Shown here piece by piece: positions 42,898 to 49,992 of a stretch of 50,027 nucleotides of DNA (positions within the stretch are counted from its first letter, which is position 1; every line of letters begins with the position of its first letter). The stretch comes from an uncultured Bacilli bacterium (GTDB taxonomy: Bacteria > Bacillota_I > Bacilli_A > RF39 > UBA660). The notes under the pieces were generated by a model. The model did no database searches and was not told where the DNA came from. It worked only from the letters and a program-made list of their open reading frames with translations. The stretch covers positions 1 to 50,027 of the forward strand of contig CANQPC010000006.1 of the NCBI GenBank assembly GCA_947625625.1, given 5' to 3'. A program made the position numbers and the translations under genes.

Positions 42898-43152
42898 CTA
42901 TGATAATTTTATTTCTTTTTCTTGTGAAGATTTTTTAATAAAGTCCATAACTTTACTTGCATCGACAGAAATTATATCATTTACCATTTCTGATATCGAT
43001 AGATTTTTATCTTTGGACCATTTATTAATTTTAAGATAATTCCAAATATCGATACTCTGAATATCGGCATATCGATTTTTAGATAGTCTTATTTTTACAT
43101 TAAATGCACCTTTTAAATAATTATATAATTTCTGCAATTTTAAATCATTCAT
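42898..43152 (-). CDS. comN: ComN-like post-transcriptional regulator
   Basis: 84 residues starting MNDLKLQKLYNYLKGAFNVK. Pattern IRLSKNRYADIQSIDIWNYL and KDKNLSISEMVNDIISV matches the ComN/YrzD family (post-transcriptional regulator), which in B. subtilis lies next to secDF and controls comE mRNA. AAGAGGAATGAAG precedes the ATG at 43152. A promoter at 43173-43201 shows that the upstream ATG at 43182 cannot be used. Confidence 0.78.
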   Translation of the reverse strand: MNDLKLQKLYNYLKGAFNVKIRLSKNRYADIQSIDIWNYLKINKWSKDKNLSISEMVNDIISVDASKVMDFIKKSSQEKEIKLS

Positions 43153-43172
43153 CTTCATTCCTCTTCTTACTA

Positions 43173-43201
43173 ATTGTATCATATTTATTTTATTTTGAAA
43201 A
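43173..43201 (-). promoter_or_regulatory. Promoter of the comN-secDF-relA run
   Basis: On the - strand TTTTCA (43201-43196), 17 bases, TGA-TACAAT (43178-43173). Same -10 form as the regulator at 12531. Confidence 0.6.
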
Positions 43202-43272
43202 CATATATAATTTAGATATTTAAAATTTTCTTAGGTCATTTTTACAACAAAAAAATAAATAATCATATTTGA

Positions 43273-43509
43273 CTATTTATTTTTTTCAAAAAGTAACGAT
43301 ACATCAATGTCAAGTGCATTAGCAATATTACTTACTGCATCTATCGAAAAGTTTTTCGTTGTGTTTGGTGCCTCGATTCGGCGGATAAACTCATGTGAGT
43401 ACTCTGCTTTCTCGGCTAATTCAGCTTGCGTCATTTTTCTCTCTTTACGATAGAATTTAATATTACTTGCAATAACTTCATAAATATCATCTTTGTTTTT
43501 CTTTTTCAT
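43273..43509 (-). CDS. XRE-family helix-turn-helix regulator
   Basis: 78 residues starting MKKKNKDDIYEVIASNIKFY. The helix-turn-helix is complete (MTQAELAEKAEYSHEFIRRIE), with the usual tail (SIDAVSNIANALDIDVSLLF). AAGGTGGTTAC precedes the ATG at 43509. It has no sensor domain. An AT-only hairpin around its stop codon (43245-43272) may end transcription. Target unknown; it follows the sigma-factor gene. Confidence 0.8.
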   Translation of the reverse strand: MKKKNKDDIYEVIASNIKFYRKERKMTQAELAEKAEYSHEFIRRIEAPNTTKNFSIDAVSNIANALDIDVSLLFEKNK

Positions 43510-43602
43510 GTAACCACCTTGATTTAATTGTCTCATATATTTTCTCTTTTTTATGTAACCTATTTGTTTACATTTTGCCTTATTTTGCCATTTTTTGGTA
43601 AT

Positions 43603-44271
43603 TTATGCAGCATTTTGATAATGTTCTTGTATTTTTTTGAGTGTTTTTTTCTCACTTCGCGAGATACTAACTTGATTTTTGCCTAATATATTAGCTACTT
43701 CACTCTGTGTCTTATCTTCATAATAGCGCAGATAAATAATTCTTTTTTCTTCGGGAGGAAGATTTTGTAGTTCCTCTCTAAGTAACATAATATCTATATC
43801 GTAGTAATCTTTTTTATCTTGAATAGTTTCTTTTAAAGTAATATCTTTTCCATCATTATAAATTACTCTATCGATACTTTCCGTTCCCAGCGATAAATTA
43901 TATACTGAAGAAATAATATCTGGTTCTACTTCGAGGAAACTAGCTAATTCTAAAATATTAGGTTCTTTCATGAGATGCTGACTTAAAATACTTCTAGCTT
44001 CGTTAATTTTTTTAAGCAAAGTAGCATTTTCTTTCGATACTTTAATCATTCTACTCTTATTTATATAAGCATAAATTTCTCCGTAAATATACTTGAATGC
44101 ATAAGTTGAAAATTTAGCATTTTGTCCTTCTTTATAGTTATCATAAGCTTTTATTATTCCTATTATTCCTACTTGATAAAGATCTTCGACATCATAGTTA
44201 TAAAAATATTTCTTTATTATCATATAGACCATTCCACTACAAGCATCAATGACTTCATCATATTTATTCAT
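43603..44271 (-). CDS. Sporulation-type sigma factor (SigF/SigG/SigB group)
   Basis: 222 residues. Region 2 (DVEDLYQVGIIGIIKAYDNY, then FSTYAFKYIYGEIYAYINK), region 3 (MKEPNILELASFLEVEPDII) and region 4 helix-turn-helix (KTQSEVANILGKNQVSISRSE) are all present, as in SigF, SigG and SigB; region 1 is absent. AAAGGATG precedes the ATG, which follows directly on the STAS stop. In spore formers sigF follows spoIIAA and spoIIAB; here spoIIAB is missing. No matching -35/-10 targets were identified by eye. Confidence 0.85.
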   Translation of the reverse strand: MNKYDEVIDACSGMVYMIIKKYFYNYDVEDLYQVGIIGIIKAYDNYKEGQNAKFSTYAFKYIYGEIYAYINKSRMIKVSKENATLLKKINEARSILSQHLMKEPNILELASFLEVEPDIISSVYNLSLGTESIDRVIYNDGKDITLKETIQDKKDYYDIDIMLLREELQNLPPEEKRIIYLRYYEDKTQSEVANILGKNQVSISRSEKKTLKKIQEHYQNAA

Positions 44272-44577
44272 CTAAATCATCCTTTCAAATAATTTAAAGG
44301 CATCATATTCATTATCTATTTTAGGTATTTCTTTTAATAACTTTTTAGAAGCATTAAATTTATCACAGATAATAATCTTAGCTTTTTTTCTTTCAAATAT
44401 TCGATATAATTTATTTATATAATCGATACTGTAACTATCTATTGAGTACATATCGTTGATATTTAAAACAATATATTTAAAATCATCAAATGTAACATTC
44501 TTAATCGTATTTTTATTTAAATCACCTTTCACTCTTATAAAAAGTATACCTCTTTGAAACTCCATACTAGTTTTTAA
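44272..44577 (-). CDS. STAS-domain protein (SpoIIAA-like anti-anti-sigma factor)
   Basis: 101 residues starting (GTG) MLKTSMEFQRGILFIRVKGD. The STAS fold is suggested by the LFIRVKGDLN strand, YIVLNINDMYSIDSYSIDYI and KAKIIICD. The usual DSSG phosphorylation loop reads DSYS: the Asp-Ser is kept, the next Ser-Gly is changed. GAGGTGAAGAAAGA precedes the GTG at 44577. TATAAT at about 44630 on the - strand with TTGTCT 16 bases before is the likely promoter. Coupled to the sigma gene with no gap. Confidence 0.75.
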   Translation of the reverse strand, partial: LKTSMEFQRGILFIRVKGDLNKNTIKNVTFDDFKYIVLNINDMYSIDSYSIDYINKLYRIFERKKAKIIICDKFNASKKLLKEIPKIDNEYDAFKLFERMI

Positions 44578-44655
44578 CACTCTTTCTTCACCTCGTTTAT
44601 AATTTAGCATATTTTTAGTTTTAATTATACCGTTTCGACAAATGTAGACAAAAGT

Positions 44656-45741
44656 TTAATTCGACATTTTTTGCATTTTTACTATGAATATGACAATAAT
44701 TCCCGAAATTAAAAGGGGAATTAGAGACAAAAGATAAGCTAATTTTCTTTTCCCATGTCCTTTATAACCAGTTTCCACTACTTCCTCAAAAGCTTTCTCA
44801 TCTAATATTTCAGAAGGAATATTATTGCCAGAATTAAGTTCTAGATCGTTCGAATCTTCCTCGGGAATAATTTCATCTTCTAGCTTTAAGTATTTGTAGT
44901 ATACTTTATAATCAGCTTCATCCTTTACGTACGAAGAATCATCCACCGAAGTATGATAATTATTATCATAATACTTTTTATTTAAATTGTAGCGGTATGT
45001 CAATATTTCTTTTTCGATACACATTTCCTTTTCTTCCAAAGGGTATTTAACATAATCCCTCTCTACCTTCTCATCTGAATAATATGTCTCTTTGAAATTA
45101 TTATATTGATAACTATAATCATCTATCAAATATTCATTCTTCATTGATGATAGTATTTTATTAATTATCTGTATAGAATTTTCGTCATAGAAATAAGCAT
45201 AATAAGCAAAGCTATTAGTATTTTCCTGTTCGACGACAAGCCTAATATTTCCTACAGTTAATGGCTCGTCAAAAACTATCGACATACTACCGCCAGCTTT
45301 AATTGTAGTGCCGCTACAAGTAGTACAGTTTTTTATATCGTAGCTTACTTTCTCCTCATTATAATAAATATCAATCTTTTTAATATTCAAATTACTTGGT
45401 ATATTTCCTAATTTTAAATATTTTGCCTTTGGAATAATCTTATAAGGGTATACTATCTTTTTTTCGACAATAACATTATCATTCCCAGCCGAGCAGCTAT
45501 CTTTATAATCGCCAATATTACGATAAATTATGTCATCATTATCTTCATAATCATATTTATCATTTACCTCTCCTTTCTTAAAATAATCCCCTTCTTTTTC
45601 CTCTCGATAAAATCGAAATCTCTTTTCTTCTGCCAATATTTCTCGTCCGTCTATCTTCTCATCACTCCAAAAATATTCTAGAGCATGTACTCTAGATAAA
45701 CTGATGATAAAAATAAAGGCAACTAATATTATTTTTTTCAT
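44656..45741 (-). CDS. Exported protein with C-terminal anchor, unknown
   Basis: 361 residues: signal peptide (MKKIILVAFIFIISLSRVHA-LE), a large acidic, Tyr- and Lys-rich exported domain with a CTTCSG pair and several other cysteines, and a C-terminal membrane segment (YLLSLIPLLISGIIVIFIV). AAGGAGGAAAAAG precedes the ATG. It takes the place between dacF and spoIIAA-like genes. No sorting motif. No family recognised. Confidence 0.6.
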   Translation of the reverse strand: MKKIILVAFIFIISLSRVHALEYFWSDEKIDGREILAEEKRFRFYREEKEGDYFKKGEVNDKYDYEDNDDIIYRNIGDYKDSCSAGNDNVIVEKKIVYPYKIIPKAKYLKLGNIPSNLNIKKIDIYYNEEKVSYDIKNCTTCSGTTIKAGGSMSIVFDEPLTVGNIRLVVEQENTNSFAYYAYFYDENSIQIINKILSSMKNEYLIDDYSYQYNNFKETYYSDEKVERDYVKYPLEEKEMCIEKEILTYRYNLNKKYYDNNYHTSVDDSSYVKDEADYKVYYKYLKLEDEIIPEEDSNDLELNSGNNIPSEILDEKAFEEVVETGYKGHGKRKLAYLLSLIPLLISGIIVIFIVKMQKMSN

Positions 45742-45795
45742 CTTTTTCCTCCTTCATACTTATATACAACTTTTTTTTCAAAAATTCCCAAGTTT

Positions 45796-45834
45796 TACGA
45801 AAAAAAATAAAAAAAGATCTAAAAATTTAGACCT
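45796..45834 (-). terminator. Terminator of the dacF-like gene
   Basis: On the - strand AGGTCTAAA pairs with TTTAGATCT (45834 down to 45815, one G-T), followed by two T-runs. The stop codon lies in the stem. Confidence 0.82.
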
Positions 45835-46970
45835 TCTGTCAAAATATCGCGAATATTTCGCATTAGAACAGTGAAAAAATCTGCTTTATCTATATTTTTA
45901 CTTACGGTTGCATCAATTGAAGATATCTTTTTACCATCCTCGATAATATCAATTATTCCTACTTTATCTCCTACTTTAACAGGAGCAATTATTTTATCAA
46001 TCTTAGCTTCATAAGTTATATTTCTTGAATTTTCACTTTTTTTACTCAAAATAGTAATAGCCTCTTTAGGAACAATATCGGCTTCTAATTCCTTTCCTAA
46101 TTCTACTTTAGCTTTCTGAATCATTGTATTTTTACTGATAATATTTTTAACCATATAAATATTATAACCATAATCGAGCATTTTAGTAGTATCGGCACTT
46201 CTTTCATTACTACTAGGTTCATTCATAACTACTGTGATTAAGCGCATATTATCTTTTTTAGCAGTCGCGGTAAGACAATAGCCTGCCGTATCGGTAAAAC
46301 CAGTCTTTAATCCATCTACTCCCTGATAAAACTTGACAAGGCGATTAGTATTGACGAGCCAAAACGGACTAGAACTATCTTTTCGTAAGTACTCCTCATA
46401 AGTTCCGGTAAATTCTAATATTTTTTCGTGTTTAACTAATTCTTTAGCAATTATCGACATATCGTAGGCACTCGAGTAATGATTATCGATATCTAACCCA
46501 GTAGCATTAGAAAAATGGGTATCTTTTAGCCCTAAATCTTTTACTTTATCATTCATCTTTTTAACAAAAGATTCTTCACTTCCCGCTACTCGTTCGGCCA
46601 TAGCGACAGTAGCGTCGTTTCCCGAGCCGATAGCTATGCCTTTTAGCATCTCTGTCACGGTCATTTTTTCTCCGGGCTCTAAAAAGATTTGACTTCCACC
46701 CATACTAGAAGCATAAGGAGAAGCAGTTATTTTCTCGTCCCATTTTAAATTACCTTTTTCTATTTCTTCCATAATTAAAAGCATACTCATCATCTTTGTC
46801 ATCGATGCAGGTGCAAGTCTTTCATGAGCGTTTTTTTGAAATAAAATTTCCCCAGTTGATGCTTCGATCATAATTGCTGCTTTAGCATTAGGAGCTAAGT
46901 CTTCGATATCTTCAGCATATACTATTGTTACTGAAAAAAAGAATAAAAAGAAAATAAATATTTTTTTCAC
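45819..46970 (-). CDS. D-alanyl-D-alanine carboxypeptidase (DacF/PBP5 type)
   Basis: 383 residues: signal peptide (about 1-19), S11 peptidase domain with S56-x-x-K59 (PASMTKM), SGN motif (IGSGNDATVAMAE) and KTG motif (GLKTGFTDTAGYC), then a C-terminal PBP5-like beta domain (about 275-370). It trims the last D-Ala from peptidoglycan. Start is the GTG at 46970 after AGGTGATATGT. In B. subtilis dacF lies upstream of spoIIAA-spoIIAB-sigF; the neighbourhood here is similar. A leader hairpin (CTTTTATT/AATAAAAG, 47008-47028) precedes it. Confidence 0.92.
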   Translation of the reverse strand: MKKIFIFFLFFFSVTIVYAEDIEDLAPNAKAAIMIEASTGEILFQKNAHERLAPASMTKMMSMLLIMEEIEKGNLKWDEKITASPYASSMGGSQIFLEPGEKMTVTEMLKGIAIGSGNDATVAMAERVAGSEESFVKKMNDKVKDLGLKDTHFSNATGLDIDNHYSSAYDMSIIAKELVKHEKILEFTGTYEEYLRKDSSSPFWLVNTNRLVKFYQGVDGLKTGFTDTAGYCLTATAKKDNMRLITVVMNEPSSNERSADTTKMLDYGYNIYMVKNIISKNTMIQKAKVELGKELEADIVPKEAITILSKKSENSRNITYEAKIDKIIAPVKVGDKVGIIDIIEDGKKISSIDATVSKNIDKADFFTVLMRNIRDILTEGLNF

Positions 46971-47173
46971 ACATATCACCTAATAAAAATTATGCAAGTA
47001 TTTGTCTTTTATTCTCCAAATAAAAGCCCTATAATCAAATTAAATTTTTACCATTATAGACAAATATTAATTATACTAAACATAACCAATAGTATTTATT
47101 TATATTATTAGTTTCTTTAATTTTCTTTGTTTGACTATTTTCTAATTAATATTCGTTATAAAATCTTTTTAGC

Positions 47174-48144: not shown

Positions 48145-49992
48145 TTAGACAACTACTATATTTTTATAATTTGGAAATCTTTCTAGTAACCATTCTTTTT
48201 GAGTAGTATCTTTAACATATATGTACGAGGAAGCGGGAACACCAGCAAACATACTACTATAATCAGTTACATTTAAAAAATCAGCATTTCGAAAATCAAT
48301 TTCTTTTAAATTTTTACAGTCACCAAACATTACAGACATATTTGTAACTTTTTCGGTAGTGAAACTACTTAAATTTAAATTAGTTAAATTAGTACAACCG
48401 CGAAACATATCAGACATTCCTATCACACTTGAAGTATCAAAATTACTTAAATCTAAGGTTATTAAAGAAGAGCAATCCATAAACATTTGCCACATAGTTG
48501 TTACTTTTTCAGTCTTAAATTTACTTAAGTCTAAACTAATCAAACTAGAACACCCAGTAAACATTCTTCGCATATCGTTTACATTAGAAGTATCAAAATT
48601 ACTTAAATTTAAGCTCTTTAAACTAGAGCAGCCATGGAACATACTAGCCATATTAGTTACACTTGGTGTATAAAAACTACTTAAATCTATATTTACTAGA
48701 CATGGACAGTCTCTAAACATACTTATCATATCATTTACTTCTAAGTTACTGAAATTTCTTAAGTCTAAATTTACTAAAGTTGAACAATTACGAAACATTT
48801 GATACATACTAATTACTTTAGATGTATCAAAATTACTTAAATCGAGAGTTGTTAAACTAAAGCAGGCAGTAAACATACTATTCATATCAATTACACTTGA
48901 TGTATTAAAATTACTTAAATTTAAGCTTGTTATATTTTTACATCCATCAAACATACCAGACATATCGGTTACTTTAGAGGTATTGAAATTGCTTACATCT
49001 AAGTTTAATACTTTGTAGCAATAAGCAAACATCATTTGCATTGATGTTACTTTAGATGTATCAAAATTACTTATATCTAAATTTGCCAGATTATTGCAGT
49101 TTGAAAACATATAACTCATATTAGTAACTTTTGATGTTTCTAATTTAGATAGATCTATTTCGATAGCATTAGTAAGATTAGCAAATAAATATCTACTATT
49201 AGCATTTAGTTTTATTTGACCGCTAGAACTTCCCATATATACTTCATATAAATTATTACTATTTGCGTCTTCATACCAGAGCATGACACTTCCATCACCT
49301 TTTGATGATATATCAAATGATTTACTAATACTTTCTGGTACAATATTAGTATCTACTGTCTTAATACTTTCGATTTCTTCTCTTTTGATGTCAGTATTTA
49401 AAAATAATGAATCAGCATTAGTATCACCTGTTGCCCTAATATAATTCTCTTCATAGATAGCATCTTCTCCTTCGCCATAGAGACTAAATTTAAAAGGTTT
49501 ATTACTCATGGCGATAGGATTGTCTTTTTTACCATCGATATAGATATATAAAGTATACTTTAACTCCTTGTCTGTTACAATCTCATTTTCTAATAACGTT
49601 ACATTTTTTCCTTCACTCTTACCTTTAAAATTATCACTTATAATTAATTTATCTTCTTGATACAATTCATAGATAAAAGTATCCTCCTGTAACTCCTTAG
49701 GTAGTAAGTCTAATGTCATATATAAATTCATAATAGCACTGTCGCCATCTTGACATAACTTATTTAATTTAACACTTATTTCTTTTTTTAGTCCATTTTC
49801 TTTTGATAAGACTGGTATTAAGCCTTCACCGTTTATAGTGGATCCTCCGACAAAAGTAATAATAGGAGCACATACTTCTAGATTTACTATAGCATTCGTA
49901 GTACTTCTCCATATATATAGAGCTAGAGTACTACTTATCGAAAAGACTAGTATACTAATCGAAATAAACATATATAGTTTAGCTTTATTCAT
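48145..49992 (-). CDS. BspA-like surface protein (DUF285 repeats)
   Basis: 615 residues: signal/anchor segment (about 7-28), a strand-rich exported region with TasA/camelysin-like features (SISSTLALYIWRSTTNAIVN), then twelve 26-residue repeats of the type LxxLDLSNFDTSKVTxMxxMF. These are DUF285/BspA-type leucine-rich repeats found in surface proteins of gut and oral bacteria and mycoplasmas, often adhesins. It ends YKNIVVV with no sorting signal. GTGAGGAAGTACT precedes the ATG. The window ends just upstream, so its promoter is not seen. Confidence 0.85.
   Translation of the reverse strand: MNKAKLYMFISISILVFSISSTLALYIWRSTTNAIVNLEVCAPIITFVGGSTINGEGLIPVLSKENGLKKEISVKLNKLCQDGDSAIMNLYMTLDLLPKELQEDTFIYELYQEDKLIISDNFKGKSEGKNVTLLENEIVTDKELKYTLYIYIDGKKDNPIAMSNKPFKFSLYGEGEDAIYEENYIRATGDTNADSLFLNTDIKREEIESIKTVDTNIVPESISKSFDISSKGDGSVMLWYEDANSNNLYEVYMGSSSGQIKLNANSRYLFANLTNAIEIDLSKLETSKVTNMSYMFSNCNNLANLDISNFDTSKVTSMQMMFAYCYKVLNLDVSNFNTSKVTDMSGMFDGCKNITSLNLSNFNTSSVIDMNSMFTACFSLTTLDLSNFDTSKVISMYQMFRNCSTLVNLDLRNFSNLEVNDMISMFRDCPCLVNIDLSSFYTPSVTNMASMFHGCSSLKSLNLSNFDTSNVNDMRRMFTGCSSLISLDLSKFKTEKVTTMWQMFMDCSSLITLDLSNFDTSSVIGMSDMFRGCTNLTNLNLSSFTTEKVTNMSVMFGDCKNLKEIDFRNADFLNVTDYSSMFAGVPASSYIYVKDTTQKEWLLERFPNYKNIVVV
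48236..49145 (-). repeat. 78-base tandem repeats coding for BspA-like units
   Basis: Twelve in-frame units of 78 bases. For example the TATCAAAATTACTTAAA element recurs at 48435 and 48591, exactly two periods apart. Units are diverged enough to be stable. Confidence 0.8.

Follow-up and report, generated by a model that had tools for sequence, protein, structure and literature searches.

In sporulating bacteria, the switch formed by SpoIIAA, SpoIIAB and SpoIIE, which acts on sigma-F, is the textbook means of restricting expression to a single member of a pair of sister cells. The locus described here resembles the spoIIA operon of Bacillus and other Bacilli (dacF-spoIIAA-spoIIAB-sigF) in having dacF upstream, a gene for a SpoIIAA-like STAS protein followed by that for a SigF-type sigma factor, and putative control by Spo0A, as well as, in some relatives without the STAS gene, in carrying spoVAC 3′ of the sigma gene. 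It differs from that operon in that spoIIAB is absent from both operon and genome and SpoIIE is absent, in that its family of STAS proteins has lost the phosphorylation site and the kinase contacts, and in that the Spo0A box accompanies a promoter of the sigma-A type. A second parallel is SypA of Vibrio fischeri, also a single-domain STAS protein that acts downstream and not as an antagonist of an anti-sigma factor, although SypA retains a kinase, SypE, and a phosphorylatable serine (PMC10120452).

The gene lists for RF39, the GTDB order in which the present family probably lies, reported by Field et al. (2024; PMC10868615) give spoIIAB and spoIIE as reduced or absent, and spoIIGA, spoIIM, spoIIP and spoIIQ as present; these authors predicted spore formation for RF39, with a markedly different regulation. 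As far as that RF39 gene set goes, it covers gene presence and absence, and does not deal with the STAS-sigma operon, the lost phosphorylation site, the Spo0A box or the forms without STAS. Inventories of genes had therefore already revealed the loss of the kinase, whereas we found no prior description in the literature of the retained and altered STAS protein, of its promoter or of the STAS-less forms.

Layout of the locus and its spread among relatives

The window, i.e., the whole stretch of DNA analysed, is a contig of 50,027 bases from a draft genome of 1.16 Mb that is 91.8% complete. The spoIIA-like locus lies on its minus strand, with four genes arranged head to tail, as the initial annotation had described: a DacF-type D-alanyl-D-alanine carboxypeptidase (45819-46979; Peptidase_S11, E 1.9e-84, and PBP5_C), an exported protein of 361 aa with a predicted signal peptide and C-terminal membrane anchor (44656-45741), a SpoIIAA-like STAS protein (44272-44580) and a SigF-type sporulation sigma factor of 222 aa with Sigma70 regions 2, 3 and 4 (43603-44271). 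The exported protein had no match in Pfam or NCBIfam, and its homologs adjoin the STAS gene in part of the relatives; it is probably a neighbor that stands outside the switch. The ATG of the sigma gene directly follows the stop codon of the STAS gene, with no gene between them. A ribosome-binding site, GAGGTG (44589-44594, minus strand), precedes the GTG at 44580, which is for this reason the most likely start of the STAS gene and agrees with the start of its relatives; the predicted product is thus of 102 aa, and an alternative length of 112 aa was dropped.

Two further regions of the window were recorded. Two genes occupy positions 42898-43536, between the sigma gene and a secDF gene: one encodes a regulator of Cro/CI type and the other a ComN-like protein (Post_transc_reg). 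Proximity of comN to secDF is also seen in Bacillus. At the other end, positions 48145-49992 encode an exported protein of 615 aa with many VTxMSxMFxxCxxLxxLDLSNFDTS repeats, of a kind known from BspA-like surface proteins.

Relatives of the STAS protein were clear in 62 of 98 genomes of the same family with a single query, and in 74 of 96 with a profile. The gene was joined to the same kind of sigma gene in 29 of the 30 loci of the first set and in 75 of 80 named loci, with distances between the two genes, from stop to start, mostly of -11 to +13 nt; the change seen in the window is therefore family-wide. The genome is a draft, 91.8% complete, which could suggest that the missing spoIIAB gene is an artifact of assembly or annotation, but this explanation is refuted, and can practically be dismissed, since 75 of 80 independent records show the genes arranged in the same way. 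Ten loci have the sigma gene and lack STAS (L103, L125, L127, L133, L144 and L227-L231); in L227 the sigma gene is followed at its 3′ side by spoVAC (150 bits, NCBIfam), as it is in others judging from sequence likeness.

Additional genes of related kinds were found in some relatives. A second sporulation sigma gene lies beside the STAS-sigma pair at L104:2844-3545, and similarly in L095, L102, L112 and L149; the copy in L104 corresponds to SigK (305 bits, NCBIfam). Likewise, a second, shorter STAS-like protein of around 80 aa, weakly related to SpoIIAA (22.7 bits), is encoded at L219:1936-2172 and also in L218, L220, L221, L223 and L225; its gene adjoins one resembling Mur ligases, and several relatives have it directly 5′ of yqfC-yqfD, of the sporulation set.

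The remainder of the early sporulation program is present in these genomes, with Spo0A in 52 of 58, SpoIIGA in 37 of 41 and SpoIIR in 36 of 41. Comparison of the genome of the window with NCBIfam gave 270.6 bits for Spo0A (cut-off 200), 357 bits for SigG (cut-off 372), 326 bits for SigE (cut-off 339) and 103 bits for SpoIIGA (cut-off 210), while SpoIIR was looked for in this genome and not found. Four of the 41 genomes (G005, G033, G036 and G038) lack sporulation sigma factors, including the sigma-F-type gene, and also STAS, and they are exactly the four without SpoIIGA. This coincident absence indicates that the module belongs to the sporulation program.

Loss of the switch proteins and changes in STAS and sigma

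We found no match to PF13581 (HATPase_c_2) in the genome of the window, and none of the 241 genomes of the order, this one included, had a match to the spIIAB model (TIGR01925) above its curated cut-off. The same search over 198 genomes at class level retrieved 40 clear cases, of 141-186 bits, showing that the method works. Nearly all of the weak spIIAB matches, among those listed, were in frames of histidine-kinase length. A single GHKL frame of 146 residues, in one genome (G028), was considered as a stand-alone kinase and rejected: it is the rear portion of a histidine kinase that is split over two reading frames (L033:823-1818), next to a response regulator, and that profile searches can mistake for a stand-alone GHKL kinase. 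SpoIIE was absent above cut-off from 58 genomes, with the Bacillus subtilis control being matched. In a genome that is 91.8% complete absence alone is no proof, so it is the order-wide absence that carries the claim that SpoIIAB is missing. The absence of SpoIIAB noted in the initial annotation thus extends to the order and, with the anti-sigma kinase gone, the module must indeed work differently.

The sigma protein gave its best NCBIfam matches with models of the SigF/SigG family, at 166 bits and below their cut-offs of 311-321. The SigF models scored 166 bits, those for SigG 128 and 116 bits, and SigB 80 bits; among sporulation sigma factors, the protein appears closest to SigF, and the genome has separate SigG and SigE genes. 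Position 149 in Bacillus numbering (D118 in the window, region 3) is Glu in 83% of the homologs that coexist with the kinase and random in the family. The position after it would, by alignment, be equivalent to E156 of sigma-G. Changing E156 of sigma-G to Lys renders it refractory to SpoIIAB (PMC3174212).

The fold of the 102-aa protein agrees with its annotation as a STAS protein. AlphaFold2 predicted a STAS domain (pLDDT 91.9, pTM 0.82) whose nearest solved structure is SpoIIAA in its complex with SpoIIAB (1th8_B, TM 0.76), and the Pfam STAS match falls just below the cut-off (E 2.4e-4; 21.3 bits vs. 22.6). We compared 98 members of the family with 28 SpoIIAA proteins from Bacilli bearing the kinase, using SpoIIAA numbering; the sequences of SpoIIAA and SigF from B. 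subtilis serve only for numbering. The loop is changed, as initially annotated, from MDSSG in SpoIIAA to IDSYS in the window. The phosphorylated serine, S58, is Ser in all 28 proteins with kinase and is Ser in 16 and Thr in five of the family members (21/98); the window protein keeps a serine at the phosphorylation site (S49). Two other loop positions are retained by most of the family, D57 by 89% and G60 by 81%. The DSYS of the window is therefore one variant among many of this loop, in which the serine can vary freely.

The variation extends to other residues of the switch. G62 and R67 are present in 100% of the proteins with kinase and scattered in the family, D23 goes from 96 to 14%, and F55 (96% with kinase) and G95 (100%) are both lost. 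As a group, the kinase-facing residues E21, D23, F55 and R67 are conserved at 89-100% where the kinase is present, but the family has lost them. Positions equivalent to E21, D23 and F55 bind the kinase (PMC10120452), and R67 participates in the interface with the kinase and in that with the phosphatase alike (PMC11418112). Conversely, other positions are nearly invariant only in the family: E8 (94%), G12 (97%), F15 (94%), R17 (94%), C81 (91%) and E106 (95%). From these patterns, the protein is probably a descendant of SpoIIAA no longer able to act as an antagonist switched by phosphorylation.

The initial annotation had also considered a distant kinase, an idea that does not hold, given that no SpoIIAB/RsbW-type protein was found in the genomes searched and that members of the family conserve neither the phospho-serine nor the residues in contact with the kinase. 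More generally, a hidden partner of STAS or sigma, be it a very divergent GHKL kinase or an anti-sigma factor of CsfB/Gin type, would respond to an apparent need for some control of sigma-F. Sigma position 39, which excludes CsfB in Bacillus (PMC3174212), is not kept in the family and would also be compatible with such a partner, and a search for CsfB/Gin left the control genomes likewise without a match. Nevertheless, with no stand-alone SpoIIAB-like kinase above cut-off in 241 genomes and with a target serine that is not conserved, we consider a hidden partner improbable.

The loss of STAS from five of 37 genomes bearing sigma-F, and its sub-threshold Pfam score, might be taken as signs of a decaying remnant, maintained for the translational coupling of sigma. 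However, dN/dS for STAS is 0.08-0.24 among close relatives, which share 69-85% identity in this protein vs. 55-74% in sigma; these values indicate that STAS is not a decaying gene and, together with the residues that are nearly invariant across the family, they disfavor the remnant, which we regard as very unlikely.

The losses and gains described above would also suit a STAS protein that serves another sporulation partner, for instance a protein of the membrane or of engulfment, and that stands in the operon for historical reasons. The shorter STAS-like gene at the yqfC-yqfD cluster of relatives favors this idea, in that STAS-like proteins may do other work in sporulation, yet the nearly invariant adjacency of STAS to sigma (75/80) speaks against it, and we regard it as less likely than not.

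Spo0A box and promoters

A Spo0A box, TTTGTCGAA, lies upstream of the STAS-sigma pair (44634-44642, minus strand) and is conserved in loci of the family, and beside it there is a possible second, degenerate half-site, TTTGTCTAC (44644-44652, minus strand). Of 103 loci, 81 carried the exact box within the 120 nt upstream of STAS and 101 carried it with at most one mismatch, whereas shuffled sequences are expected to contain 0.2 exact boxes and around six with one mismatch; in many cases the distance to the box was measured from an internal Met, and is around 15 nt too long, with little effect on these counts. Between the box and the gene, an extended -10 element of the STAS-sigma promoter, TGCTAAATT (44601-44609, minus strand), was recognized by its position and by its agreement with TGNTAWADT, found 5′ of STAS and after the Spo0A box in 42 of 75 relatives vs. 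6.25 expected. Preceded by this box, and in a genome that encodes Spo0A, the STAS and sigma genes most probably form a Spo0A-controlled operon, to which Spo0A itself would bind.

In nine of the ten STAS-less loci, the Spo0A box, with at most one mismatch, is found directly before the sigma gene. It appears, from the position of the box, that these lineages lost STAS while control by Spo0A stayed. STAS is not essential, given that there are lineages in which it is gone while the box and sigma both persist.

A different pattern, G.ATA-N15-20-CA.TA, similar to promoters of forespore sigma factors, precedes SpoIIR in 14 of 26 cases vs. 0.5 expected, and it was found in none of 75 STAS promoters. 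The dacF gene of the window is preceded by a promoter-like stretch (46988-47014, minus strand) with GAATA, a spacer and CATAATT, which resembles forespore sigma promoters, and the CATA element recurs 5′ of dacF in relatives. Nonetheless, the forespore-type pattern was not enriched before dacF (1/15, not significant).

Proposed supply of sigma-F without a partner switch

We interpret this locus, with a probability of roughly 70%, as a spoIIA operon that has been stripped of its partner switch, and in which the supply of sigma-F is set by transcription driven by Spo0A. The kinase and anti-sigma factor SpoIIAB and the phosphatase SpoIIE are gone, leaving STAS as a changed descendant of SpoIIAA. 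Phosphorylated Spo0A would bind the box observed before the STAS-sigma pair and activate the sigma-A-type promoter, and the resulting sigma-F would be active without an inhibitor. Against this, restricting an uninhibited sigma factor to a single cell compartment would be difficult, and an inhibitor that escaped notice may exist. The SpoIIR promoters suggest that sigma-F would then feed the SpoIIR-SpoIIGA-sigma-E signal, whose genes are kept; that SpoIIR was not found in the genome of the window counts against this reading. STAS would be made together with sigma through the tight coupling of their genes, and would have acquired a new accessory role; such a role is suggested by this coupling, by purifying selection and by the new near-invariant residues. 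We tentatively picture STAS as an accessory, coupled modulator of sigma-F, most likely stoichiometric, that may act on sigma-F or on the holoenzyme; to this role by itself we give less than even odds.

A stronger version makes STAS a direct regulator, either an anti-sigma factor or a chaperone, which binds sigma-F and replaces SpoIIAB. The tight coupling of both genes, a purifying selection on STAS at least equal to that on sigma, the near-invariant residues gained in the region of strands one and two and the loss of STAS together with sigma are all in line with this possibility, to which we likewise give less than even odds. On the other hand, several lineages that bear sigma-F have no STAS, and an AlphaFold2 model of an in-frame STAS-sigma read-through, with the TAG codon as Q, reached a pTM of 0.38 with no confident arrangement, which is a weak test given its 16 sequences and forced linker. 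A full reversal of roles, in which a whole lineage begins forespore development without any partner switch, sigma-F being restrained jointly by synthesis under Spo0A and by a onetime anti-anti-sigma factor that binds sigma-F itself, seems unlikely.

The preferred reading, of a spoIIA operon relying on Spo0A-driven supply, implies that a sizeable family of uncultured bacteria living in the gut has kept Spo0A, sigma-F, SpoIIR, SpoIIGA, sigma-E and sigma-G, and has dropped the switch. Such a family raises the question of the minimum needed for cell-specific expression, and its natural variants with and without STAS allow that minimum to be tested.
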